Positions 26,697 to 38,427 of a DNA stretch of 57,071 bases are shown one piece after another; position 1 is the first letter of the stretch; the number at the start of each line of letters is the position of its first letter. Source of the stretch: Comamonadaceae bacterium (lineage in GTDB: Bacteria > Pseudomonadota > Gammaproteobacteria > Burkholderiales > Burkholderiaceae_C); assembly GCA_947455935.1 (NCBI GenBank), contig CANGPV010000002.1, positions 1 through 57,071 of the forward strand. Reading direction: 5' to 3'. Both the position numbers and the translations under genes were made by a program. A model generated the notes under the pieces. It was not told where the DNA came from, ran no database searches, and saw only the letters and a program-made list of their open reading frames with translations.

Positions 26697-26789
26697 GGAA
26701 ACGTGACCGAGTGGCCGAAGGTGCTCCCCTGCTAAGGGAGTATGGGGTGTTGAGCCTCATCAAGGGTTCGAATCCCTTCGTTTCCGCCA
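26697..26789 (+). tRNA. tRNA-Ser (anticodon GCU)
   Basis: Folding by eye gives a complete tRNA with a long variable arm. The acceptor stem pairs GGAAACG (26697-26703) with CGTTTCC (26779-26785), the discriminator is G, and CCA is encoded (26787-26789). The anticodon loop CTGCTAA sits on the CTCCC/GGGAG stem, with anticodon GCT at 26731-26733 reading AGC/AGU serine codons. The variable arm (TATGGGGTGTTGAGCCTCAT region) is class II. The T arm is AGGGTTCGAATCCCT. It lies 10 bases behind lysC and may share its transcript. Confidence 0.96.
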
Positions 26790-26845: not shown

Positions 26846-26974
26846 ATGAATACAAACAAAGCCTCCCTCATTAAAAACAAGTCTGCGCTGTACTACGCCG
26901 TGGGCATTGTGATTTTTTCTGCCATTGCTGGAACAATTGTGTTGATTATTGAAATCGTCAAGCAAAACAGCTGA
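26846..26974 (+). CDS. Small single-helix membrane protein, 42 residues
   Basis: An ORF of 42 codons that starts MNTNKASLIKNKSALYY and then has one hydrophobic helix (about 16-37, YAVGIVIFSAIAGTIVLIIE), closing with a basic-polar tail ending KQNS. Positive residues precede the helix, consistent with an N-in, C-out inner-membrane peptide. It lies 21 bases before the DUF423 gene on the same strand. No family is recognised, and the ribosome site is weak. Codon use is ordinary for the region. Confidence 0.5.
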   Translation: MNTNKASLIKNKSALYYAVGIVIFSAIAGTIVLIIEIVKQNS

Positions 26975-26995: not shown

Positions 26996-27376
26996 ATGAA
27001 AACTTTCAATCGTTTGTTGTTTGTTTTCGCATGCTTGATGGGCGCTGTGTCTGTGTTGCTGGCCGCTTACACGGCGCATCAACCAGATTTAGATCAGGCA
27101 GCGCGGCATTCTCTCAATGCTGCTATTCAATTGATGCAGTTCCATACGCTGGCGATATTGATCATTTCGTGGCTAGCTAAAGAGAAGTCGTTCCACCTTT
27201 CCTTGGTCCTCAGCGCAGGTTTGTTTATGGCTGGCATCTTGATGTTCAGCCTTAACATAGCCATCCGTCATTTGGTAGGTATGGGGAGCTTGTCTTTCTT
27301 ATTGCCCTACGGAGGTATGGCCTTTGTAGTCGGTTGGCTAGCTTTAGCCTTTATGGCCAAGCATTCAGACTTTTAA
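26996..27376 (+). CDS. DUF423 family membrane protein
   Basis: A 126-residue integral membrane protein with four helices (about 5-25, 45-62, 68-90 and 98-120). The opening FACLMGAVSVLLAAYTAH and the HSLNAAIQLMQFHTLAIL stretch, including the helix-2 His, match the DUF423 (YgdD-like) family. Length is typical. Its role is unknown. The stop overlaps the bciA start by one base (TAATG), so the two are probably co-translated. Confidence 0.85.
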   Translation: MKTFNRLLFVFACLMGAVSVLLAAYTAHQPDLDQAARHSLNAAIQLMQFHTLAILIISWLAKEKSFHLSLVLSAGLFMAGILMFSLNIAIRHLVGMGSLSFLLPYGGMAFVVGWLALAFMAKHSDF

Positions 27377-28374
27377 TGAGACCAGGCATGCGTGTTCTTT
27401 TGCTGGGTGCCACTGGAACCATAGGTCAAGCAACATGCAAAGCTTTGCTGGAAGCAGGGCATTCTGTGACCTGCCTCATACGCCACAAAGCAGGATTCAA
27501 AAATCAAGCGTCTATAGAAAAAATACATGGGTTGCTTGCCGGTGCCGAGATCAGACTGGGGGATGTTCAGTCAGTATCCACTGCGCAAGTGCAAAGTTTG
27601 CGCGACGATAGGTTTGACGCCATTGTGTCTTGCTTGGCCTCTCGTACGGGCAGCCCCAATGACGCTTGGGCCATCGATTACCAAGCGCATTCACGATGGT
27701 TGAAAGCGGCGCAATCAGCCGGTATTGGTCAGTTTGTGTTGTTATCAGCTATTTGCGTTCAAAAACCCTTGTTGGCTTTTCAGCAAGCCAAACTGGCCTT
27801 TGAAAAAGAATTGTGCGCGTCGGGTATGGTCTATTCCATTGTTCGTCCCACCGCTTTTTTCAAGTCATTGTCGGGTCAAATTGAACGGATTAAAAAAAAC
27901 AAATCGTTTTTGGTGTTTGGCAATGGTGAACTCACTGCATGTAAGCCCATTAGCGACCATGATTTGGCTTACTTCATTACGTCGTGCTTGACTGAGCCAG
28001 CCAAGCACCATCGCATACTGCCTATAGGTGGTCCAGGTGAGGCCATCACACCCTTGCAGCAGGGTCAATACCTTTTTAAGTTGTTCAACAAAAAACCTAA
28101 GTACACCCGCGTTCCTGTGGCGATGCTCGACGTCATCATTCACCTCCTGCGGGTAGCAGGCTGGATAGTTCCTTCACTCAAAGACAAAGCAGAGCTTGCA
28201 TGTATTGGGCGCTATTACGCGACAGAGTCCATGCTGGTATGGGATCCCAAGACGCAGCGTTATGACGCGGATGCAACGCCTTCAAGTGGTACGCAAACTT
28301 TGTTTGATCACTACGATCAATTGGCTGCGGGTCAAACTAAGGTCCAACTGGGTGACCATGCGGTGTTTTCATGA
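27376..28374 (+). CDS. bciA: Divinyl chlorophyllide a 8-vinyl-reductase, BciA type
   Basis: A 332-residue NAD(P)H-dependent reductase of the atypical SDR group. In bacteriochlorophyll synthesis BciA reduces the 8-vinyl group of divinyl (proto)chlorophyllide. The dinucleotide motif LLGATGTIGQAT is at about 10-20. Family-specific blocks are SCLASRTGSPNDAWAIDYQ, FVLLSAICVQKPLLAFQQAK, SIVRPTAFFKSLSGQ, CKPISDHDLA, ILPIGGPG, RYYATESMLVWDP and the ending GDHAVF. The start is ATG 27376 (overlapping DUF423) or 27388. It is strongly recognised, yet no other (bacterio)chlorophyll gene lies in the window. It overlaps the next gene, a hydratase, by 4 bases, so it sits at the head of a catabolic operon. 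Confidence 0.92.
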   Translation: MRPGMRVLLLGATGTIGQATCKALLEAGHSVTCLIRHKAGFKNQASIEKIHGLLAGAEIRLGDVQSVSTAQVQSLRDDRFDAIVSCLASRTGSPNDAWAIDYQAHSRWLKAAQSAGIGQFVLLSAICVQKPLLAFQQAKLAFEKELCASGMVYSIVRPTAFFKSLSGQIERIKKNKSFLVFGNGELTACKPISDHDLAYFITSCLTEPAKHHRILPIGGPGEAITPLQQGQYLFKLFNKKPKYTRVPVAMLDVIIHLLRVAGWIVPSLKDKAELACIGRYYATESMLVWDPKTQRYDADATPSSGTQTLFDHYDQLAAGQTKVQLGDHAVFS

Positions 28375-29270
28375 GCAGCCCGATAGATCTCTCTTTGTTG
28401 CAACGATGGGTGGGCAATACCGAAACCAGCCAAGACACCATCACCCTTGCACCTGTGCGGTCCATGTCTGCGTTGCTCGATAGAGACGATTCAGCGCCCC
28501 AAGCCGGCGATAGCTTGCCGCCTTTGTGGCATTGGTTGTATTTCTTACCAACCGCCAAACAATCGGACCTCGGCGAGGATGGACATGCCAAGCGCGGCGG
28601 ATTTTTGCCTCCCGTGCCACTGCCCAGACGCATGTGGGCAGGGGGACATTTGGAATTTATAACACCCATCCGCGTCGGTGACCAGCTAACGCGTACATCG
28701 ACCATTCAATCGGTGAACCACAAGCAGGGTAAGAGCGGGGACTTGGTGTTTGTCACCGTCAAGCATCTTTATGAAGGTCAACAAGGACTTTGCCTGCGTG
28801 AAACGCATGACATTGTGTATCGCGCACATGCCCTTGTAACAGCCAAATCCTTGCCGCCTACCGCTGCCGACACATTAGTGAAGACCGGTGCACTTGCGCA
28901 TCCTGTCTGGCATCGCGAGATCACACCTGATGATGTTTTGCTATTTCGCTATTCAGCATTGACCTTCAACGCACACCGTATCCATTACGACCGTAACTAC
29001 GCGACGCAAGCCGAGGCTTATCCGGGTTTGGTGGTGCATGGCCCTTTGATTGCCACCTTATTGCTTGATGTGCTCGGAAGCCATACTGACAGGCCACTTA
29101 AGCAGTTTTCATTTAAAGCTGTACGCCCTACTTTTGAGTGTGCTGACCAACGCCCGCTGCGGGTGAGCGCACAAATGCTCCCTGATGGTCAACACTGCTG
29201 TCTGTGGGCGCAAGACCACGAGGGGTGGCTGACCATGCAAGCGCAAGCGGAATTAGGCGCTACACCATGA
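28371..29270 (+). CDS. HTD2/FAS1-like acyl-CoA (de)hydratase, MaoC-type hotdog
   Basis: A 299-residue double-hotdog protein of the COG3777 type, to which mesaconyl-C4-CoA hydratases and fungal HTD2 belong. The N-terminal half is the FAS1-like dehydratase domain (WAGGHLEFITPIRVGDQLTR, about 89-108). The C-terminal half carries the catalytic FNAHRIHYDRNYA (H202, H205, D207) and VVHGPLIATLL (223). It should add water to, or remove it from, an enoyl/3-hydroxyacyl-CoA; the acyl group is not known. Coupled by 4-base overlaps to bciA upstream and the acyl-CoA dehydrogenase downstream. Confidence 0.85.
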   Translation: MSSPIDLSLLQRWVGNTETSQDTITLAPVRSMSALLDRDDSAPQAGDSLPPLWHWLYFLPTAKQSDLGEDGHAKRGGFLPPVPLPRRMWAGGHLEFITPIRVGDQLTRTSTIQSVNHKQGKSGDLVFVTVKHLYEGQQGLCLRETHDIVYRAHALVTAKSLPPTAADTLVKTGALAHPVWHREITPDDVLLFRYSALTFNAHRIHYDRNYATQAEAYPGLVVHGPLIATLLLDVLGSHTDRPLKQFSFKAVRPTFECADQRPLRVSAQMLPDGQHCCLWAQDHEGWLTMQAQAELGATP

Positions 29271-30436
29271 AAACGACTGTACCTGCACTGGATGAACATC
29301 AAGACATCCGTGATGGTGTTCGTGCTTTGTGCGCAGCATTTGATGGGGCTTACTGGCAAGGTATTGACGATCAACGCGGATACCCTGAAGAATTTGTGAG
29401 CGCCTTGACACGAGCGGGTTGGCTTGCTGCTTTGATTCCATCAGAATATGGCGGTTCAGGTCTGGGCTTGGTGCAAGCCTCTGTCATCATGGAAGAGATC
29501 AATTTAAGTGGTGGCAACGCTGGTTCATGCCATGGCCAGATGTACAACATGGGCACCTTGTTGCGGCATGGTTCTGAGCAACAAAAAGCGCTCTATTTGC
29601 CCAAAATTGCCAGCGGTGAGTGGCGACTGCAATCGATGGCGGTGACCGAACCCACCACGGGTACTGACACCACCCAGCTCAAAACGACTGCTGTCAAAAG
29701 GGGCAACAGCTATGTCATTTCAGGTCAAAAGGTGTGGATCTCTCGGGTCCAGCATTCAGATCTCATGATATTGCTGGCTCGCACCACACCGTTGGATCAA
29801 GTCAAGAAAAAGAGCGAAGGCATGTCCATTTTTTTGGTGGATGTCAAAGCAGCTTTGGCGCAAGGGATGACACTCAAACCCATTCGCAACATGGTGAACC
29901 ATGAAACCAACGAAGTATTTTTTGATGCGCTAGAGATTCCGGCAGATAACTTGATTGGCCAAGAGGGTAAAGGCTTTTATTACATCTTGGACGGTTTGAA
30001 CGCTGAACGCATTTTGATTGCGGCCGAATGCATTGGTGACGCCTACTGGTTCATCAACCGTGCCCGTCATTACGCTGGTGAACGTGTGGTGTTTGGTCGG
30101 CCCATTGGTCAAAACCAAGGCGTGCAATTTCCCATAGCAGATACCTACATCGAAACGGAGGCAGCCAACCTCATGCGCTGGAAGGCCTGCGAACTTTTTG
30201 ATTCGAATCACCCCTGCGCAGCCCAAGCAAATATGGCTAAGTACCTGGCTGCCAAAGCCTCGTGGGAGGCTGCCAATGTATGCATGCAAACCCATGGTGG
30301 TTTTGGGTTTGCCTGCGAATATGATGTCGAGAGAAAATTCAGAGAAACCCGTTTGTACCAAGTCGCTCCTATTTCCACCAACTTGATTTATGCCTATGTG
30401 GCTGAGCATGTGTTGGGTTTGCCGCGATCTTTTTAG
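29267..30436 (+). CDS. Acyl-CoA dehydrogenase
   Basis: A 389-residue FAD-dependent dehydrogenase starting at 29267 (MKTTVPALDEHQ), overlapping the hydratase stop by 4 bases. The N domain has ALIPSEYGGSGLGLVQASVI, the middle domain AVTEPTTGTDTTQLKT and ISGQKVWISRVQHSDL, and the C domain ECIGDAYWFINRARHYAGERV with MQTHGGFGFACEYDVERKFR. The glutamate of the last block (about residue 351) sits where the catalytic base of short-chain and medium-chain enzymes lies. It introduces the alpha-beta double bond of an acyl-CoA, and its chain preference is not readable. An electron-transfer flavoprotein must be supplied from elsewhere. Confidence 0.9.
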   Translation: MKTTVPALDEHQDIRDGVRALCAAFDGAYWQGIDDQRGYPEEFVSALTRAGWLAALIPSEYGGSGLGLVQASVIMEEINLSGGNAGSCHGQMYNMGTLLRHGSEQQKALYLPKIASGEWRLQSMAVTEPTTGTDTTQLKTTAVKRGNSYVISGQKVWISRVQHSDLMILLARTTPLDQVKKKSEGMSIFLVDVKAALAQGMTLKPIRNMVNHETNEVFFDALEIPADNLIGQEGKGFYYILDGLNAERILIAAECIGDAYWFINRARHYAGERVVFGRPIGQNQGVQFPIADTYIETEAANLMRWKACELFDSNHPCAAQANMAKYLAAKASWEAANVCMQTHGGFGFACEYDVERKFRETRLYQVAPISTNLIYAYVAEHVLGLPRSF

Positions 30437-30445
30437 CTGTAAGAC

Positions 30446-31627
30446 ATGACCCGACCGTTAGACCATATCACTGTCATTTCGCTGGAACATGCGATTGCTG
30501 CACCTTTTTGTACGCGGCAGTTGGCAGATTTGGGCGCGAGGGTCATCAAAATTGAGCGCCCCGAAGTGGGTGACTTTGCCCGAGGCTATGACCAACGGGT
30601 CAATGGTTTGTCCTCGCATTTTGTGTGGACCAACCGGTCTAAAGAAAGTTTGACACTGGACATCAAGCACGACCAAGCCATGCAGGTGTTGTTGATGCTG
30701 TTAAAAACAGCAGATGTGTTTGTCCAAAATTTAGCCCCTGGGGCCGCAGCACGTTTGGGACTGTCGTTTGAACAACTGAAAACGCTGAATCCCCGATTGA
30801 TTGTGTGTGACATTTCTGGTTACGGCAATGACGGCCCTTACAGGGATAAAAAAGCCTATGACTTGCTGATTCAAAGTGAGGCTGGGTTTTTATCCGTGAC
30901 GGGTACACCCGACACCCCCTCCAAAGCGGGTTGCTCGATTGCAGATATTGCGGCCGGCATGTATGCCTACACCAACATTCTCTCGGCTTTGCTGTTGCGT
31001 GAGAAAACAGGTGAGGGCTCGCACATCGATGTGTCTATGTTGGAGTCTTTGTCCGAGTGGATGAGCTTTCCGCTTTACTATGCCTATAACGATGCTGAAC
31101 CACCTGCTCGTTCAGGCGCTTCACACGCCACGATTTATCCGTATGGCCCTTTCCCTGTGGGCGGGGGTGCCACCATCATGTTGGGGCTGCAAAATGAACG
31201 GGAGTGGCTGGTGTTTTGCGACAAAGTCTTGTGCGATGCGGGGCTTGCCAAGGATGAGCGATTCAACAGCAACAGCCAACGTCATCAGAACCGAGAGCAA
31301 CTTAGCGTGTTGATTGAACAATGCTTTGCGGCACTCGACATCACCGCAGTAGAGTCTCGTTTGGATGAAGCCAAGATTGCCCACGGTCGAATGAACAACA
31401 TGAGCGAACTTTGGAGCCACCCCCAACTAAGCGCTCGTCAGCGTTGGCAACAGGTGGCTTCGCCTGTGGGTCACATCAGCGCTTTATTGCCGCCTGGAGT
31501 GAACAGCGCTTACCGTTACCGTATGGATGCCGTTCCATCTGTGGGGCAGCACACAGAGGCTATCTTGGAAGAGTGCGGGGTCAACCCTGAGACCATGCAA
31601 TCAATGAAAAAACAAGGGGCCATTTAA
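30446..31627 (+). CDS. Family III CoA-transferase (CaiB/BaiF)
   Basis: A 393-residue family III CoA-transferase. The N-terminal HAIAAPFCTRQLADLGARVI and VIKIERPEVGDFARGYD are classical, and the catalytic aspartate is D167 in CSIADIAAGMYAYTNILSAL. Such enzymes move CoA from a donor such as succinyl-CoA to a free carboxylic acid without ATP. In this operon it would activate the imported or oxidised acid before the dehydrogenase and hydratase act. The gene starts 9 bases after the dehydrogenase stop. The substrate acid is unknown; mesaconate- and itaconate-type acids are possible because HTD2-type hydratases occur in those routes. Confidence 0.88.
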   Translation: MTRPLDHITVISLEHAIAAPFCTRQLADLGARVIKIERPEVGDFARGYDQRVNGLSSHFVWTNRSKESLTLDIKHDQAMQVLLMLLKTADVFVQNLAPGAAARLGLSFEQLKTLNPRLIVCDISGYGNDGPYRDKKAYDLLIQSEAGFLSVTGTPDTPSKAGCSIADIAAGMYAYTNILSALLLREKTGEGSHIDVSMLESLSEWMSFPLYYAYNDAEPPARSGASHATIYPYGPFPVGGGATIMLGLQNEREWLVFCDKVLCDAGLAKDERFNSNSQRHQNREQLSVLIEQCFAALDITAVESRLDEAKIAHGRMNNMSELWSHPQLSARQRWQQVASPVGHISALLPPGVNSAYRYRMDAVPSVGQHTEAILEECGVNPETMQSMKKQGAI

Positions 31628-31630
31628 GCG

Positions 31631-32539
31631 ATGAATGTGGATACCTTGCTCTTGGGTGTGGCTGACGGCATTTCCTATGCAGGTCTGTTATTTTTGGTGT
31701 CGCTGGGCTTGACCTTGATCTTCGGCGTTTTGGGCGTACTCAATATCACCCACGGCAGTTTGTATGCCTTGGGTGGTTACACCGCCGCCAGTCTCACAGC
31801 CTTTGCCATGCGTCACGCGTTAGACAGTACCCCGGTTTTGTTTGTTGTTTTGGTGTTGGCCGCGATGGTGGTGGGTGTGGTCATGGGCTTGTTATTGGAT
31901 GTGCTGTTGTTGAGGTATTTCCAAAAGCGCGATCCGGTTATTCAATTGCTGGTGACGTTTGCAGTCTTTGTGATTTTTGAAGATGTGCAAAAGTTGGTAT
32001 GGGGTACCTCGCCTTACTCTGCGGGTGAAATTGTTTCTCGATTGGGTACGGTTGAAATATTTGATGTCACTTACACGGTTTACCAAATGATGGTTATTCC
32101 GGGTATTGCACTGGCCAGTTACTTAGGTTTGAATTTTTTTCTGAAAAAAACTCTATGGGGTAAGCAAACCGTTGCCCTGACCCATCACCGTGAAGTGGCA
32201 ACTGCCATGGGCGTGAATGTCAAAAAAATCGGTGCACTGGTGTTTGTATTAGGAGCCATGCTCGGCGCTTTGGGTGGTGCTTTGGCAGTTCCTGTGTCTT
32301 CACTCACTCCAGGCATGGGGGCCGAAATGATTGTGTTGTCCTTCACTGTGGTGGCTACCGCAGGTTTAGGCCAAATCACCGGTGCGCTCATTACTTCCTT
32401 GATGATAGGTTTGGCTCGTTCCATGGCTGTCTATCTCTTACCCGAGTTTGACGTAGCCATGCCTTACATCATTATGTTGTTGGTTTTACTGATACGGCCT
32501 AATGGACTGTTCAGTGTGGCGCAGTCGCGGAGAATTTGA
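31631..32539 (+). CDS. livH: Branched-chain-type ABC transporter permease, LivH family
   Basis: A 302-residue inner-membrane permease with about eight hydrophobic segments. Diagnostic stretches are LGLTLIFGVLGVLNITHGSL near the N terminus, VTFAVFVIFEDVQKLVWG, the Gly-rich GAMLGALGGALAVPVSSLTP and VATAGLGQITGALITSLMIG. It lies 3 bases after the CoA-transferase, and its stop overlaps the LivM start (TGATG). With the next three genes it forms a full importer of the hydrophobic amino acid family; many such systems carry carboxylates or aromatic acids instead. Confidence 0.91.
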   Translation: MNVDTLLLGVADGISYAGLLFLVSLGLTLIFGVLGVLNITHGSLYALGGYTAASLTAFAMRHALDSTPVLFVVLVLAAMVVGVVMGLLLDVLLLRYFQKRDPVIQLLVTFAVFVIFEDVQKLVWGTSPYSAGEIVSRLGTVEIFDVTYTVYQMMVIPGIALASYLGLNFFLKKTLWGKQTVALTHHREVATAMGVNVKKIGALVFVLGAMLGALGGALAVPVSSLTPGMGAEMIVLSFTVVATAGLGQITGALITSLMIGLARSMAVYLLPEFDVAMPYIIMLLVLLIRPNGLFSVAQSRRI

Positions 32540-33486
32540 TGCAGTTAGGTGCTTTCTCTGTTATTTCTGTACTGCTGGTGTTTGCATTGGGCGTTGTCTT
32601 TCCTTGGACCAAAACCATGCTCATCATTGGGCTGTGTTATGGCCTGTCTGCGCTTGGCGTTGCCTTGCCAGCACGTTCGGGTCAGGTGTCATTTGGGCAT
32701 GCCATGTTTGCCTGTGTTTCTGCCTATGCTGTCGCATTCATGGCCAAAGCTTTCCCCGGCATGGATGGTCTCTGGCTGATTGTGTTGGCTACCTTGGTGG
32801 GCACTGTGTTTGCTATCGTGCTGGGTTCGTTTGTGGTTAGGTACCGAGGTATTTTTTTCGGCATGCTCAATTTGGCAATCAGTATGGTCATCGTGGCATT
32901 GCTCGGTAAGTTGTATGAGATCTCGGGGGGGACCGATGGTATTCGTGTGCAACGTCCTTCCTTTGCGGGCATGATCACTGACCGAAGCGAATTTGAAACC
33001 ATGTTGTTGCTGCTGAGTTGTTGCGCCGCTTTGCTAGCGGGATGGTTCTACCAACGGTTTACGCAATCCTCTACGGGCGAAGCCTTGGCCGGTATGAAGA
33101 GCAACGAAACTCGATTGGAGTATTTGGGTATATCGGCTCACCACATACTGTGGGTTGGCTATGCATGGTCTGGTTTTTTTGTCAGCTTGGCTGGCGCTGT
33201 GTTTGCCTTGGCGCAAGGATTGGTCACCCCCGACATGGGCGCTTGGACGCGGTCGGGTGAATTGGTGTTTATTCTTATTTTGGGCGGGTCAAGCCATGCT
33301 TTGGGTCCGTTTGTGGGTGCGGCAGTCTTTCAAGCGGTCAAGTTGTTTGCCTCAGCCTATATGGCAGGTGTGTGGCAAATGTTGCTGGGATTTACGCTGT
33401 TGATTGTGATTGCCTTGGCCCCAGAAGGTATGTTGGGTGCATGGCAAGCGTATCGGCAGAAGTTGGCTAAAGGAGCGCAGCCATGA
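32539..33486 (+). CDS. livM: Branched-chain-type ABC transporter permease, LivM family
   Basis: A 315-residue permease paired with LivH. The ATG at 32539 overlaps the livH stop; a TTG one codon earlier is also in frame. Family features are GLSALGVALPARSGQVSFGH, the FGMLNLAISMVIVALLGKL helix, KSNETRLEYLGISAHHILW with the conserved cytoplasmic loop, and LILGGSSHALGPFVGAAVF. Roughly nine hydrophobic segments. Overlaps livG by 4 bases. Confidence 0.91.
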   Translation: MQLGAFSVISVLLVFALGVVFPWTKTMLIIGLCYGLSALGVALPARSGQVSFGHAMFACVSAYAVAFMAKAFPGMDGLWLIVLATLVGTVFAIVLGSFVVRYRGIFFGMLNLAISMVIVALLGKLYEISGGTDGIRVQRPSFAGMITDRSEFETMLLLLSCCAALLAGWFYQRFTQSSTGEALAGMKSNETRLEYLGISAHHILWVGYAWSGFFVSLAGAVFALAQGLVTPDMGAWTRSGELVFILILGGSSHALGPFVGAAVFQAVKLFASAYMAGVWQMLLGFTLLIVIALAPEGMLGAWQAYRQKLAKGAQP

Positions 33487-34235
33487 GCCAAGCGCTTTTA
33501 ATTGCAAGCGATGTGTGCTTGGCCTTTGGTGGTGTAGTGGCGGCTGACCATATTGATTTTGCATTGAACGATGGCGAGCGCTTGGCTGTCATTGGTCAAA
33601 ACGGCGCTGGCAAAACCACCTTCATCAATATTTGCACAGGCTATCTTCAACCCACAGTTGGACGCATTGTGTTCAATGGTCATGACATCACGGGAAAAAA
33701 ACCTCGCAGTATCGTCAAACTGGGTATGGGGCGCTCATTTCAACTCCCCCAATTGTTTGCAGGGCATTCTGTGCAGAAGTGTCTTGAAATTGCTGCTGCG
33801 GCCAGAGGTGGTCGCTTGTCTTGGTTGGCATCCTTATCGGACTCGGTTGATTACCATGAAATCATGGACACCTTAGAGTTGATTGGTTTGCGTTCAGCGG
33901 CGCATGAATTAGCTGGTGAATTGCCAGAGGGTCACAAAAAATTACTCGATGTGGCCATGGCCTTAATGCTGCGACCCAAACTCATCATCATGGATGAACC
34001 CACCAGTGGTGTGTCCTCGCAAGACAAGCATGGCTTGATGGCGTTGGTGATGCAGGCCTTAGACGAACGCAAAGTCACCAGTTGGTTTGTCGAGCACGAT
34101 GTCGATATCGTTTCACGTTATGCCACCCGAGTTGCTGCGTGGATAGATGGCAAGATAGCCGCTGATGGCGACCCACAGCAGGTCCTTAAAAATGCACAGG
34201 TTCGTGAACAGGTTCTGGGGTTACCGCCATGTTGA
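33483..34235 (+). CDS. livG: ABC transporter ATP-binding protein, LivG family
   Basis: A 250-residue ATPase. Walker A is GQNGAGKTTF (38-47), Walker B KLIIMDEPTSGVS with D171-E172, and the H-loop WFVEHDVDIV. The ABC signature, normally LSGGQ-like, reads ELPEGHKKLLDVAMAL (146-161): the Gly is kept but the serine is replaced. It pairs with LivF, whose signature is intact, so the two ATP sites of this importer are unequal. Stop overlaps livF by 7 bases. Length is in the family range. Confidence 0.91.
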   Translation: MSQALLIASDVCLAFGGVVAADHIDFALNDGERLAVIGQNGAGKTTFINICTGYLQPTVGRIVFNGHDITGKKPRSIVKLGMGRSFQLPQLFAGHSVQKCLEIAAAARGGRLSWLASLSDSVDYHEIMDTLELIGLRSAAHELAGELPEGHKKLLDVAMALMLRPKLIIMDEPTSGVSSQDKHGLMALVMQALDERKVTSWFVEHDVDIVSRYATRVAAWIDGKIAADGDPQQVLKNAQVREQVLGLPPC

Positions 34236-34879
34236 GCCTAGATCGTCTGTGTGTGTCATTTGGGCATTCGCCTGTGTTGCGTTCCCTGTCTTTGCAACTC
34301 TCTGCAGGAACTACCTTGGCTGTGGTGGGGCGTAATGGCGCAGGCAAAACCACTTTGTTACGCAGCATCATGGGTTTGATAGAAGCCACTTCGGGTGGGA
34401 TGTATGTGGATGAGGTTAATTTGCGTACATCACCAGCGCACCTCAGAACCCATGTGGGTTTGGGCTATGCCCCTGAGGACAGGGTGATTTTTCCCACCAT
34501 GAGCGTGCAAGAAAACCTGTCATTGCCGTGTGAAATTTTGCAGCTATCAGCTAGGCAGATCCAAGAGCGACTGAATCACGTTGTCGATGTGGTTCCCCAA
34601 CTACAACCCATGTTGAGTCGCTCGGGCGCGGCTTTGTCAGGTGGACAAGGAAAAATGGTGGCCTTGGGCCGCGCATTGATGGTGGGAACCAAGGTGGTGT
34701 TGCTCGATGAACCTTTTCAGGGTCTCGCACCTGCGCTGGCATTGCAGTATGCGCAAGCTCTGGGGCGCCTGCGTACAACTCGCCCCGACGTATGTGTGCT
34801 GATCACAGAGTCCAATGCGGCTTTGCTGTCAGACATTCCTAACCAAGTATTGACGATAGAGCGCGGCTCATTCGTATGA
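34229..34879 (+). CDS. livF: ABC transporter ATP-binding protein, LivF family
   Basis: A 216-residue ATPase, slightly shorter than the usual 235. Walker A is GRNGAGKTTLL (34-44), the signature ALSGGQGKMVALGRAL (135-150) is canonical, and Walker B is VVLLDEPFQGLAPALA with D160-E161. The short length comes from a compact C terminus ending TIERGSFV. It starts 7 bases inside livG and completes the LivHMGF membrane-ATPase unit. Confidence 0.91.
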   Translation: MLSLDRLCVSFGHSPVLRSLSLQLSAGTTLAVVGRNGAGKTTLLRSIMGLIEATSGGMYVDEVNLRTSPAHLRTHVGLGYAPEDRVIFPTMSVQENLSLPCEILQLSARQIQERLNHVVDVVPQLQPMLSRSGAALSGGQGKMVALGRALMVGTKVVLLDEPFQGLAPALALQYAQALGRLRTTRPDVCVLITESNAALLSDIPNQVLTIERGSFV

Positions 34880-34907: not shown

Positions 34908-36341
34908 ATGGCAACAATGTTAATTAATGGACAGTCGGTATCAGCGCTATCTGGCAAAACTCTGGATGTGCTGTCTCCCGTAGATGGTTTGAAATTTGAA
35001 ACCATTCCCCGAGGAGAGCAAGCAGATGTGAATGCAGCAGTTGATGCTGCCAATGCCGCGCTTCTTGGGCCCTGGGGAAAAATGACGGCGCTTGAACGCG
35101 GACGTTTGCTCATGAAGTTGGGTGAAAAAGTGTTGGCAAACCATGCTGAGTTGAGTGCCTTGGAAGCCAAAGACACGGGCAAACCCATGACCACGGCCCG
35201 CACCGACATCACGGTGTTGGCGCGGTACTTTGAATACTACGGAACAGCGGCCGACAAAATCCATGGCTTGGTGTTGCCTTTTTTAGACGGCTACAGCGTG
35301 AATGTGTTGCGCGAACCTTTGGGTGTCACGGCGCATATCATTCCTTGGAACTACCCAGCACAAATGATGGGCCGCAGTATTGCGCCTTCATTGGCCATGG
35401 GTAATGCGGTGGTGGTCAAACCTGCCGAGGATGCTTGTTTGTCACCTCTGCGTATTGCTGAGTTGGCACGTGAAGTGGGGTTTCCTGATGGCGTGGTGAA
35501 TGTGGTGACTGGCTTGGGAGAGGAGGCGGGTTCGGCCTTGTCACACCACCCAGGCATTCATTTCATTTCATTCACGGGGTCCAATGAGGTAGGCGTGTTG
35601 GTGCAAAAAGCTGCTGCGCAAAACGTTATCAAATGCGTGTTGGAGTTGGGTGGCAAATCAGCCCACGTGGTATTTGCCGATGCTGATCTTGACCGCGCCG
35701 TACCCATCATCACCCGTGGCATCATTGCCAACACAGGGCAAACCTGCACGGCAGGTAGTCGCTTGATTGTTCACAGCAGCATTTACACGCCTCTCATGGA
35801 CAAGTTAGCTAGGCAATTTTCACAAGTGAAAGTCGGCACCCCAGAGATGGATCTGGACTGTGGTCCCGTGGTGAACATGGCACAACGCGATAGAGTTGCG
35901 TATTACCTGAGCGAAGCCCAAAAGTCGGGTATTGATATCGTCGCCCAAGGTGTTGTGTCGGCTGGATTACCCGACAAAGGCTATTACGTCACCCCCACAC
36001 TGTTGGGGCATGTTCCCCCTGACCATTGCTGCGCACAAGAAGAAATTTTTGGCCCTGTTCTTTCTGCTATGACATTTGAGACTGAGGCTCAGGCGATTAC
36101 CTTAGCTAACGGCACCGCTTATGGTTTGATGGGTGCGGTATGGACAGAAAATGGCGGGTGTCAGCAACGCGTTGCCAAAGCCATCAAAGCGGGACAGGTT
36201 TACATCAATGCATTTGGTGCAGGTGGTGGCGTTGAATTGCCTTTTGGTGGTTTCAAGAAAAGCGGACACGGACGCGAAAAAGGTTTCTTGGCTTTAGAAG
36301 AAGTGAGTGCTACCAAAACCGTCATCCACTATCATGGATAA
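34908..36341 (+). CDS. NAD(P)-dependent aldehyde dehydrogenase
   Basis: A 477-residue aldehyde dehydrogenase. The catalytic cysteine is C280 in NTGQTCTAGSRLI, the general base E246 in VLELGGKSAHVVF, and the NAD-binding turn FTGSNEVG (222-229). AHIIPWNYPAQM holds the oxyanion asparagine. The start at 34908 follows an AGGAACA ribosome site and lies 28 bases after livF. It would oxidise an aldehyde to the acid taken by the CoA-transferase. It resembles betaine- or aminoaldehyde-type enzymes in length and motifs, but the substrate is not assigned. Confidence 0.91.
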   Translation: MATMLINGQSVSALSGKTLDVLSPVDGLKFETIPRGEQADVNAAVDAANAALLGPWGKMTALERGRLLMKLGEKVLANHAELSALEAKDTGKPMTTARTDITVLARYFEYYGTAADKIHGLVLPFLDGYSVNVLREPLGVTAHIIPWNYPAQMMGRSIAPSLAMGNAVVVKPAEDACLSPLRIAELAREVGFPDGVVNVVTGLGEEAGSALSHHPGIHFISFTGSNEVGVLVQKAAAQNVIKCVLELGGKSAHVVFADADLDRAVPIITRGIIANTGQTCTAGSRLIVHSSIYTPLMDKLARQFSQVKVGTPEMDLDCGPVVNMAQRDRVAYYLSEAQKSGIDIVAQGVVSAGLPDKGYYVTPTLLGHVPPDHCCAQEEIFGPVLSAMTFETEAQAITLANGTAYGLMGAVWTENGGCQQRVAKAIKAGQVYINAFGAGGGVELPFGGFKKSGHGREKGFLALEEVSATKTVIHYHG

Positions 36342-36355
36342 ACAGGGAGTTTTCA

Positions 36356-37108
36356 ATGGCTAAATTGAGTAATCACATCGCTATCGTCACAGGTGCAGGC
36401 GGCGGGTTTGGTGAAGGCATTGCGCAGTTGTTTGTGCAAGAGGGCGCAAAGGTAGTGGTGGCTGATATTCGCGGTGATGCTGCCAAAGCGGTGGCTGATC
36501 GACTGGGTGTCAACGCCAGCGCTTTTACCTGTGATGTGTCCAAAGCAGACAGTGTGCAAGCCTTGGTTGATTTCACAGTCCAAACTTTTGGCACGCCGCA
36601 CATCGTGGTGAACAACGCGGGCGTTACCCACCTGAACCGTCCTATGCTGGAGGTCACTGAAGCCGAATTTGACCGTGTGTACGACATCAATGTGAAATCC
36701 ATTTTTCATATGGCCCACGCGGTGGTTCCCCTGATGCGCAACAACCAAGGTGGCGTGATTCTTAATGTGGGTTCTACCGCCGGTATACGCCCTCGGCCAG
36801 GTTTGACTTGGTACAACGGTTCCAAGGCGGCAGTGAACATCATTTCAAAATCGATGGCGGTTGAACTTGGACCCGACAAGATTCGCGTCAACGCTATTTG
36901 TCCTGTGATGGGAGAGACAGGCATGTTTACCCAGTTCATGGGTATGCCTGACACCCCTGAGAATCGCGCCAAATTTTTAGGATCGATTCCTTTGGGACGT
37001 TTTTCCTTACCCAGCGATGTCGCGGCGGCGGCTTTGTTTTTGGCCAGCCCTGAAGCTGAATTTTTCACGGGCGTTGAGTTGCCTGTGGATGGTGGCAGAA
37101 CTGTTTAA
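36356..37108 (+). CDS. Short-chain dehydrogenase/reductase
   Basis: A 250-residue classical SDR. The cofactor motif is VTGAGGGFGEGIA (about 11-23), followed by NNAG at 86-89, the catalytic S140 (VGSTAG) and Y153-xxx-K157 (WYNGSKAAV). An acidic residue after the second strand (VADIRGD) favours NAD(H). It probably interconverts an alcohol or hydroxyacyl group with its ketone or aldehyde for the neighbouring aldehyde dehydrogenase (14 bases upstream). The substrate is unknown. Confidence 0.91.
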   Translation: MAKLSNHIAIVTGAGGGFGEGIAQLFVQEGAKVVVADIRGDAAKAVADRLGVNASAFTCDVSKADSVQALVDFTVQTFGTPHIVVNNAGVTHLNRPMLEVTEAEFDRVYDINVKSIFHMAHAVVPLMRNNQGGVILNVGSTAGIRPRPGLTWYNGSKAAVNIISKSMAVELGPDKIRVNAICPVMGETGMFTQFMGMPDTPENRAKFLGSIPLGRFSLPSDVAAAALFLASPEAEFFTGVELPVDGGRTV

Positions 37109-37128: not shown

Positions 37129-38427
37129 ATGAATAAATCAATTCAAACAGTGAGTCTGCTCTTGGGCATGTGTTTGCTATCTCCCTTGTCATGGGCGCAG
37201 CAAAAACCTACTGAGTTAAAAATTGGCATCACCACTTTTTTATCTGGCCCTGCATCGGTGTTTGGCGTGCCAGCAAAAGCTGCTGCGGAAATTGTGATCG
37301 ACGACATCAATGCCAAAGGTGGAATCGCTGGCGTGAAGCTCAATGCATCATTCATTGACGAAGGCTTGGGCGCTGACCAAATGCTCACCGAATACCGCCG
37401 TGTGGTGCAAGACCAAGGCGTGAAGACCATGCTGTCAGCCATTTCCAGCGGGAATTGCAATGTGGTGGCACCCGTGGCCGAAGACTTGAAGGTGCTCAAC
37501 ATCATGTGGGACTGCGGCACCGAAAAAGTCTTGGAAGACAAAAAATTCCGCTATGTGGTGCGCACCCAAGCCAACGCCACAACAGAGATGGTGGCGACCG
37601 TTATCTATTTGTTGAAGACCAATCCCGATTTCAAAACCATAGCGGTGGTCAATCAAGACTATGCATGGGGTCGTGATTCTTGGGAAATTTTCCGCAATGC
37701 CTTACTCACCTTGAAACCTGATGTGAAAGTGGTTGGCGAGTTCTTCCCCAAATTCGGTGCTGCAGATTTTTCAACCGAAGTTTCGCGCTTGTCCGCACTT
37801 AAACCCGACGTGATTTTGTCCACCGCGTGGGGTGGTGACTTGGATACGTTTTCACGACAAGCAGCGCAACGTGGCTTATTTAAACAATCTAAATTCATAC
37901 TTCCATTGGCTGAAAGTTCGCTGGAACGCTTGGGCGCAACTTTGCCTGATGGTGTGATTGTCGGCGCGCGTGGGGACCATTATTTTTTGCATCCTGAAAC
38001 CAAAGACGATGCAAACCACAAAGCATTTATTCAAAAGTTCAAAGCCAAAACCAACACCTACCCCATTTACTCCGTCTACCATATGGCGCAAGCCTTGTAT
38101 GGCTTGAAAGCAGGTTACGAGCAAGCGATGAAAACCAACGGCGGCAAATGGCCCAGTACCGAAGAGGTGGCTGATGCCATGCATACGATGGAGTTCAAAG
38201 GCTATGGTCGTCCTGTCAAGATGCGCGCTGATGGCCAAGGACTTGAAGATCAGTTGCTTGGCGTGACCAAAAAAATTGCCCAATACCCTTTCCCTGTGAT
38301 TGATCAAATCATGATCATTCCCGCCTTTGGTGTAACCACGCCCATAGGACAAAAGTCACCAGAGTGGGTGAAGACCATCAAGCCTGATTTATTGGAACAA
38401 AAACTAAAAATCTACACGACCAACTGA
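37129..38427 (+). CDS. Periplasmic ligand-binding protein, LivK type
   Basis: A 432-residue periplasmic binding protein and the last gene of the operon, preceded by AGGAGA. A signal peptide is clear (LLLGMCLLSPLSWAQQ, cleavage after about residue 24). The mature part has the type I fold (Peripla_BP_6): LKIGITTFLSGPASVFGVPA, VIDDINAKGGIAGVKLNASF and AVVNQDYAWGRDSWEIFRNA. It is longer than the amino-acid binders and similar in size to those of substituted-amide or aromatic-acid importers. It delivers the ligand to LivHM. Its binding-pocket residues cannot be read by eye, so the ligand remains open. Confidence 0.91.
   Translation: MNKSIQTVSLLLGMCLLSPLSWAQQKPTELKIGITTFLSGPASVFGVPAKAAAEIVIDDINAKGGIAGVKLNASFIDEGLGADQMLTEYRRVVQDQGVKTMLSAISSGNCNVVAPVAEDLKVLNIMWDCGTEKVLEDKKFRYVVRTQANATTEMVATVIYLLKTNPDFKTIAVVNQDYAWGRDSWEIFRNALLTLKPDVKVVGEFFPKFGAADFSTEVSRLSALKPDVILSTAWGGDLDTFSRQAAQRGLFKQSKFILPLAESSLERLGATLPDGVIVGARGDHYFLHPETKDDANHKAFIQKFKAKTNTYPIYSVYHMAQALYGLKAGYEQAMKTNGGKWPSTEEVADAMHTMEFKGYGRPVKMRADGQGLEDQLLGVTKKIAQYPFPVIDQIMIIPAFGVTTPIGQKSPEWVKTIKPDLLEQKLKIYTTN

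Follow-up and report, generated by a model that had tools for sequence, protein, structure and literature searches.

The gene at 27376-28374 is very probably a true bciA, a conclusion in which the activity of the product is predicted from orthology. By analogy with its orthologs, BciA would use NADPH to reduce the C8-vinyl group of divinyl chlorophyllide, a step in the synthesis of bacteriochlorophyll a. In our overall reading, which we hold with high confidence, this gene would fill the C8 step of a host in which no BciB was found, from a site in front of a catabolic gene cluster that is shared by a small clade. The local novelty is the order of the genes, bciA followed by those for MaoC, acyl-CoA dehydrogenase and CaiB, in a small clade of close relatives. 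No description of the bciA-MaoC arrangement was found in the open-licence literature. The window, i.e. the whole stretch of DNA analyzed, is an entire contig (G000:C2, 57071 bases) of the host genome, and its relevant features are collected in Table 1. Searches with the acyl-CoA dehydrogenase were run from the in-frame start at 29261. For the ABC transporter, BPD_transp_2 came from a search of 31631-32539, the other three genes being named by sequence and order.

Table 1. Features from the tRNA gene to the end of the catabolic and transport cluster, in window positions
Feature	Position	Strand	Remark
tRNA-Ser(GCT)	26697..26789	+	downstream content variable across the genus
DUF423 gene	26996..27376	+	directly before bciA
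bciA, putative C8-vinyl (divinyl chlorophyllide) reductase, NAD(P)H-binding SDR-like protein	27376..28374	+	alternative start ATG 27388
MaoC/FAS1-type hydratase	28371..29270	+	nearest solved structure itaconyl-CoA hydratase (8khg)
acyl-CoA dehydrogenase	29267..30436	+	ATG 29267 overlaps MaoC stop by 4 nt
CaiB family (family III) CoA-transferase	30446..31627	+	
LivHMGF-type ABC transporter, two permeases and two ATPases	31631..34879	+	
aldehyde dehydrogenase	34908..36341	+	named from sequence
short-chain dehydrogenase	36356..37108	+	
periplasmic substrate-binding protein (Peripla_BP_6)	37129..38427	+	

Reading frame and family membership of bciA

The bciA frame runs from ATG 27376 to TGA 28372-28374 and encodes 332 residues without internal stops, so that the coordinates given in the first-pass annotation were correct. 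That annotation had also reported overlaps with both neighbors. The one of 4 nt with the CoA-ester hydratase gene was confirmed, the ATGA at 28371-28374 being common to the bciA stop and the MaoC start; the relatives compared have a homologous MaoC start, and this overlap is firm. The one-base overlap with DUF423 stood only in part. The DUF423 stop TAA (27374-27376) has one base in common with ATG 27376, but the second in-frame ATG of bciA, at 27388, corresponds to the start position of the same-clade homologs, which makes the overlap uncertain; if ATG 27388 is used, it turns into a short gap. Likewise, the view that bciA heads the operon is right only in part, as DUF423 and an ORF of 42 residues lie upstream on the same strand. 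This ORF (26846-26974), immediately 5′ of DUF423, has one likely membrane helix as judged by eye.

A PF13460 domain was detected in the protein with 70.2 bits against a cut-off of 27.2, and a GxxGxxG motif is located at residues 11-17, of which G11, G14 and G17 are invariant in 26 rows. The same motif and domain are described for two characterized BciA enzymes in the available text of PMC3931815. Identity to BciA of Rhodobacter sp. CZR27 amounts to 61.5% over 98% of the length, in keeping with the 53-61% that the passages available from the papers give for characterized or named BciA orthologs (R. capsulatus and R. sphaeroides 61%, PMC4214422; R. sphaeroides and C. tepidum 53%, PMC3931815). 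With the window protein, all NCBIfam matches were weak and stayed below the cut-offs of their models, and a PDB search with it also yielded weak matches only. Neither of the FrhB_FdhB domains by which we recognized BciB, PF04422 and PF04432, was found in it. A plasmid search for BciA returned three records.

We calculated a rooted tree from 39 of the 119 BciA rows, CZR27 and 8 of the 10 paralog stretches, leaving out L267 and L268, which gave no match at E 1e-4. The 40 BciA rows were set apart from the 8 paralogs (matched at 25-31% identity) with a support of 97/80, where the bootstrap value is unsettled and the paralog branches are very long. The window protein fell inside the BciA group and not among the SDR-like paralogs, in agreement with its first assignment to this family. 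In the full BciA tree, one BciA on a contig binned as Anaerolineae (L177) grouped with alphaproteobacterial ones, which points to mis-binning or transfer.

The host and the choice between BciA and BciB

As had been noted before, the 57 kb hold no other photosynthesis gene: none was detected in the 57071 bases with 31 query proteins, taken from the two photosynthesis contigs of the same genome and from two relatives. A few of these queries are general (hemA, dxs, an ABC transporter), and cross-hits of the ABC transporter query were the sole matches. The genome-wide check proposed in the first-pass annotation found such genes on other contigs of the draft (2.1 Mb, about 85% complete), namely pufL, pufM, bchC, bchX and bchY on C36 and bchD, bchO, bchP, bchG, ppsR, bchN and bchB on C12. 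Judged by its genes, the host belongs to the phototrophs of the Limnohabitans group and is predicted to make bacteriochlorophyll. Phototrophy in Limnohabitans has been published already, according to the available text of PMC12654162, which cites it.

The same C8-vinyl step can be performed by an alternative enzyme, the F420-dehydrogenase-like BciB (as presented in the accessible portions of PMC5972617 and PMC4214422), the sequence of which is unrelated to that of BciA. PF04432 had no match in the host genome; this is not proof of a missing BciB, since the draft is only about 85% complete. The one BciB locus read, in G309, has the order bchG-bciB-ppsR, with both FrhB/FdhB domains confirmed and bchG and ppsR named from their sequences. 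In the host, 60 nt of a single contig separate bchG from ppsR, and the lack of BciB is therefore not due to an assembly gap at that spot. Because no BciB was found there, BciA would be the enzyme that fills the C8-vinyl step in the host.

The distribution of the two enzymes was examined on two levels. In a family sample of 299 genomes, 40 had BciA and 48 had pufLM, the two occurring together in 36 (Fisher p 1.3e-31); in a genus sample of 61 genomes, which includes Limnohabitans sp. B9-3 (G260), pufLM was present in 42, of which 22 had BciA only, 16 PF04432 only, none both and 4 (G299, G347, G351, G355) neither (p 2.9e-8), both p values being too small because the genomes are related and independence is overstated. 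The family count of 40 comprises matches with E 1e-19 or better and at least 54% identity, including the fragments in G209, G261 and G266, whereas 178 of the 299 genomes were tallied with a match to the BciA query at E up to 0.001. Among the matches listed, the next ones below the BciA set had E values of at least 1e-18 and 23-36% identity over at least 100 residues, with up to 43% identity for short pieces. For the genus the cut-off was E 1e-15, at which 24 of 61 genomes were positive, G308 being represented by a fragment and G342 by two pieces.

Four family genomes had BciA without pufLM. A bchN match was over the cut-off in G242, a piece in G249 remained below it at 104 bits, none was found in G266 (84% complete), and in the complete genome G133 the bchN search returned only a low-scoring NifE gene. 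Two of the 24 genus genomes with BciA are also without pufLM: G310, where bchN is present, and G325, which has no bchN match but whose bciA lies among bchP, bchI, bchD and acsF. BciA was not found in 12 of the 48 family genomes with pufLM. Seven of these (G005, G041, G091, G108, G140, G145, G229) have PF04432 and G224 has a PF04422 piece at a contig end; G081, G172, G183 and G201, all 99-100% complete, gave neither BciA nor FrhB/FdhB-type matches and may rely on a COR-type vinyl reductase. PF04432 is not specific for BciB at the family level, since it also occurred in genomes without pufLM and alongside BciA (G011, G077, G078, G249, G253).

The pufLM and bch genes of the host, the either-or distribution of BciA and BciB in the genus and the direct succession of bchG and ppsR without BciB in between indicate that BciA is very probably a working C8-vinyl reductase and not a reused enzyme. 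Of the two options left by the first-pass annotation, phototrophy with bciA located apart from the main cluster is the one supported, by the host genes, the placement in the BciA group and the fact that BciA and BciB never occurred together in the genus. Other photosynthesis genes, the lack of BciB at the place where a relative has it and the either-or pattern are what distinguishes misplacement of a photosynthesis gene from its reuse; within one genus, this pattern amounts to a natural experiment, if a small one, on how one pigment enzyme is replaced by another.

bciA, the catabolic cluster and the tRNA-Ser site

The order bciA, MaoC, acyl-CoA dehydrogenase was found in 7 of the 24 BciA-bearing genus genomes, i.e. 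the host (G000), G334, G332, G321, G318, G310 and G311. CaiB comes next in G000, G318, G310 and G311, where the stretch reaches that far, and had no match within the short contigs examined for G334, G332 and G321. In the full tree, from which L138 was excluded for an internal stop and in which 11 identical rows were merged, the seven genomes formed one group (SH-aLRT 93), so that the arrangement probably has one origin; in the smaller rooted tree, which contained 5 of the 7, support for the group was 83/63 with an unsettled bootstrap value. The bciA/MaoC junction is ATGA in the window, TGATG in G334, G332 and G321 and a short gap in G318, G310 and G311. For bciA, dN/dS was 0.076-0.16 in all pairs with unsaturated synonymous sites. 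Synonymous change was saturated between the window bciA and three members of the arrangement, and the adjacency of bciA and MaoC is therefore old. All seven genomes have pufLM or bchN, and BciB was found in none of them, six being drafts of 58-85% completeness and G311 being 99% complete.

MaoC itself is more widespread, with matches at E up to 0.001 in 42 of 61 genus genomes. We examined 30 MaoC loci out of these 42 genomes with flanks of about 1.5 kb, and 23 showed no bciA within the stretch examined. The complete genomes G080 and G343 have MaoC without bciA nearby and are also without pufLM. As for DUF423, it directly precedes bciA in the host genome only, as far as the contigs of the other six reach; that of G310 starts about 210 nt upstream of bciA, which leaves the position of DUF423 out of view. 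It was rejected as a conserved partner, being beside bciA, among the loci compared, only here and in G304 (45% identity, convergent strand).

The site on the other side is defined by lysC followed by tRNA-Ser(GCT), an order observed in 11 of 11 genomes with a lysC match (13 examined). Sequences 3′ of the tRNA differ among the 8 other genus loci read. About 55 nt separate tRNA-Ser from the start of bciA in G334 and G332, and the upstream sequence of G321 is the same. In the window, the 42-residue ORF and DUF423 are situated in between, and in G311 (L217) 1.5 kb separate tRNA-Ser from bciA, ending in a partial second tRNA 3′ end. This 1.5 kb stretch holds an ORF of 382 residues and resembles an insertion with a target repeat at its borders. 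The position on the tRNA side is out of view in G310, where lysC and bciA are on separate contigs, and in G318, which had no lysC match. An integrative element around the cluster was considered and discarded: even when up to 3 mismatches were allowed, the window showed no second copy of the tRNA 3′ end, so that the ends of such an element could not be set.

In the ancestor of the clade, we propose, bciA came to be placed downstream of lysC-tRNA-Ser(GCT) and directly before the genes of acyl-CoA catabolism and transport, where it would have been kept under purifying selection; the part that moved may have been bciA, the catabolic cluster or both. The 42-residue ORF and DUF423 between the tRNA and bciA would probably be a later insertion in this genome. 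The 4-nt overlap here and the 1-nt overlaps in three relatives suggest that bciA and MaoC are translationally coupled, probably on one transcript. With such a move of bciA, a photosynthesis gene would have become part of a cluster for carbon use.

Whether this linkage carries any regulatory meaning is a separate matter. It may simply be a neutral by-product of a position beside a variable tRNA site, an explanation that is compatible with the one proposed above and to which we give slightly better than an even chance. The differing content behind tRNA-Ser in the 8 other loci, the partial second tRNA 3′ end some 1.5 kb further on in G311, the several other contexts of bciA in the genus and the variability of the junctions (ATGA, three times TGATG, three short gaps) all speak for it; on the other hand, the adjacency has outlasted synonymous saturation between the window and three members, and overlapping reading frames were kept in 4 of 7 genomes. 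On balance, a neutral shared location of bciA and the catabolic cluster is at least as probable as its opposite. The stronger idea, that the pigment C8 step has left the light/oxygen regulon and is expressed with the acyl-CoA/dicarboxylate operon, following carbon supply, we consider doubtful. TGT-N12-ACA, which we take to be the PpsR site motif, is present immediately 5′ of bchC, in front of the ORF at 8061 of contig C36 and also just upstream of the minus-strand gene 7954-8763 of L222; four more matches in the two photosynthesis stretches were assigned to no promoter. There was none between tRNA-Ser and DUF423. The one match between tRNA-Ser and bciA, at 27054, was rejected as a PpsR site, as it lies inside the DUF423 coding sequence and is one of 15 in the window. 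With that many matches, the absence of the motif upstream of DUF423 gives a weak hint only. No promoter-like site was found upstream, promoter and terminator scans being no better than chance.

Reuse of a BciA-like reductase on an acyl-CoA or another catabolic substrate within the MaoC operon, the second option of the first-pass annotation, appears quite unlikely. It would account for the gene order with MaoC and acyl-CoA dehydrogenase conserved in seven genomes, for the stop/start overlap in four of them, and for two substitutions: column 175, constant in 112 other rows, is changed from G to N in all seven, and five of the seven deviate at the near-constant column 182, the window not among them. 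The complete genome G133, without pufLM or bchN, moreover keeps an intact BciA. However, with pufLM or bchN in all seven genomes and BciB found in none, reuse would leave the pigment step unfilled, save for a COR enzyme. At the 108 columns that are at least 97% conserved among the 112 BciA rows outside the window clade, the window protein shows a single departure, which equals the median of all rows, and the 23 of 30 MaoC loci without bciA likewise speak against reuse. For this gene, the option is thus unsupported. The idea that bciA is in decay, as a leftover of a lineage on its way out of phototrophy, to which its place outside the main cluster and the missing PpsR-type match between tRNA-Ser and DUF423 might lend themselves, is extremely improbable and was rejected on the basis of the intact frame, a dN/dS of about 0.1 and the wide set of other, intact photosynthesis genes in the genome.

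The BciA of G133 (G133:C1:2310502-2311482; L021, L043) is an observation of its own. It is intact and 58% identical, in a complete genome of 5.6 Mb with nifE; the genes beside it encode a short-chain dehydrogenase and a protein of the cupin type, and those of a TRAP transporter lie nearby. We regard it as a candidate for real reuse.

Location of bciA in other genomes

A position of bciA away from the photosynthesis cluster is common and ordinary, as seen from its variable contexts in the family and the genus. The gene lies beside bchC in G001, G124 and G011, beside tspO and bchP in G325 and G341, and elsewhere near other genes or before MaoC. Of the best 80 of 577 confirmed places, 31 named loci had at least 9 kb on both flanks. 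In 25 of these 31, flank queries from the host genome and two relatives, which may miss distant homologs, detected no core photosynthesis gene around bciA; L125, with the MaoC arrangement, is among the 25. This is in line with a 2011 survey of aerobic phototrophs, in whose available text the shared cluster core covers the pathway except for the 8-vinyl reductase (PMC3176799).

Compared with the known systems, the other BciA proteins of the genus, such as that of Limnohabitans sp. B9-3, belong to the same family, with 58-74% identity in full-length matches. The difference resides in the location: bciA precedes MaoC in the window clade, but is near bchP in G325, G341 and B9-3, the latter with one ABC transporter gene in between. 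A parallel is offered by Rhodobacter sp. CZR27, where bciA likewise lies outside the listed photosynthesis genes, on a replicon of 860 kb (NZ_CP023549.1, L258). There, none of the 15 features listed within 17 kb, in a gene table that is incomplete, is a photosynthesis gene. In CZR27 bciA is found between sox and benzoate catabolism genes, whereas in the window it overlaps MaoC in a catabolic cluster on the same strand.
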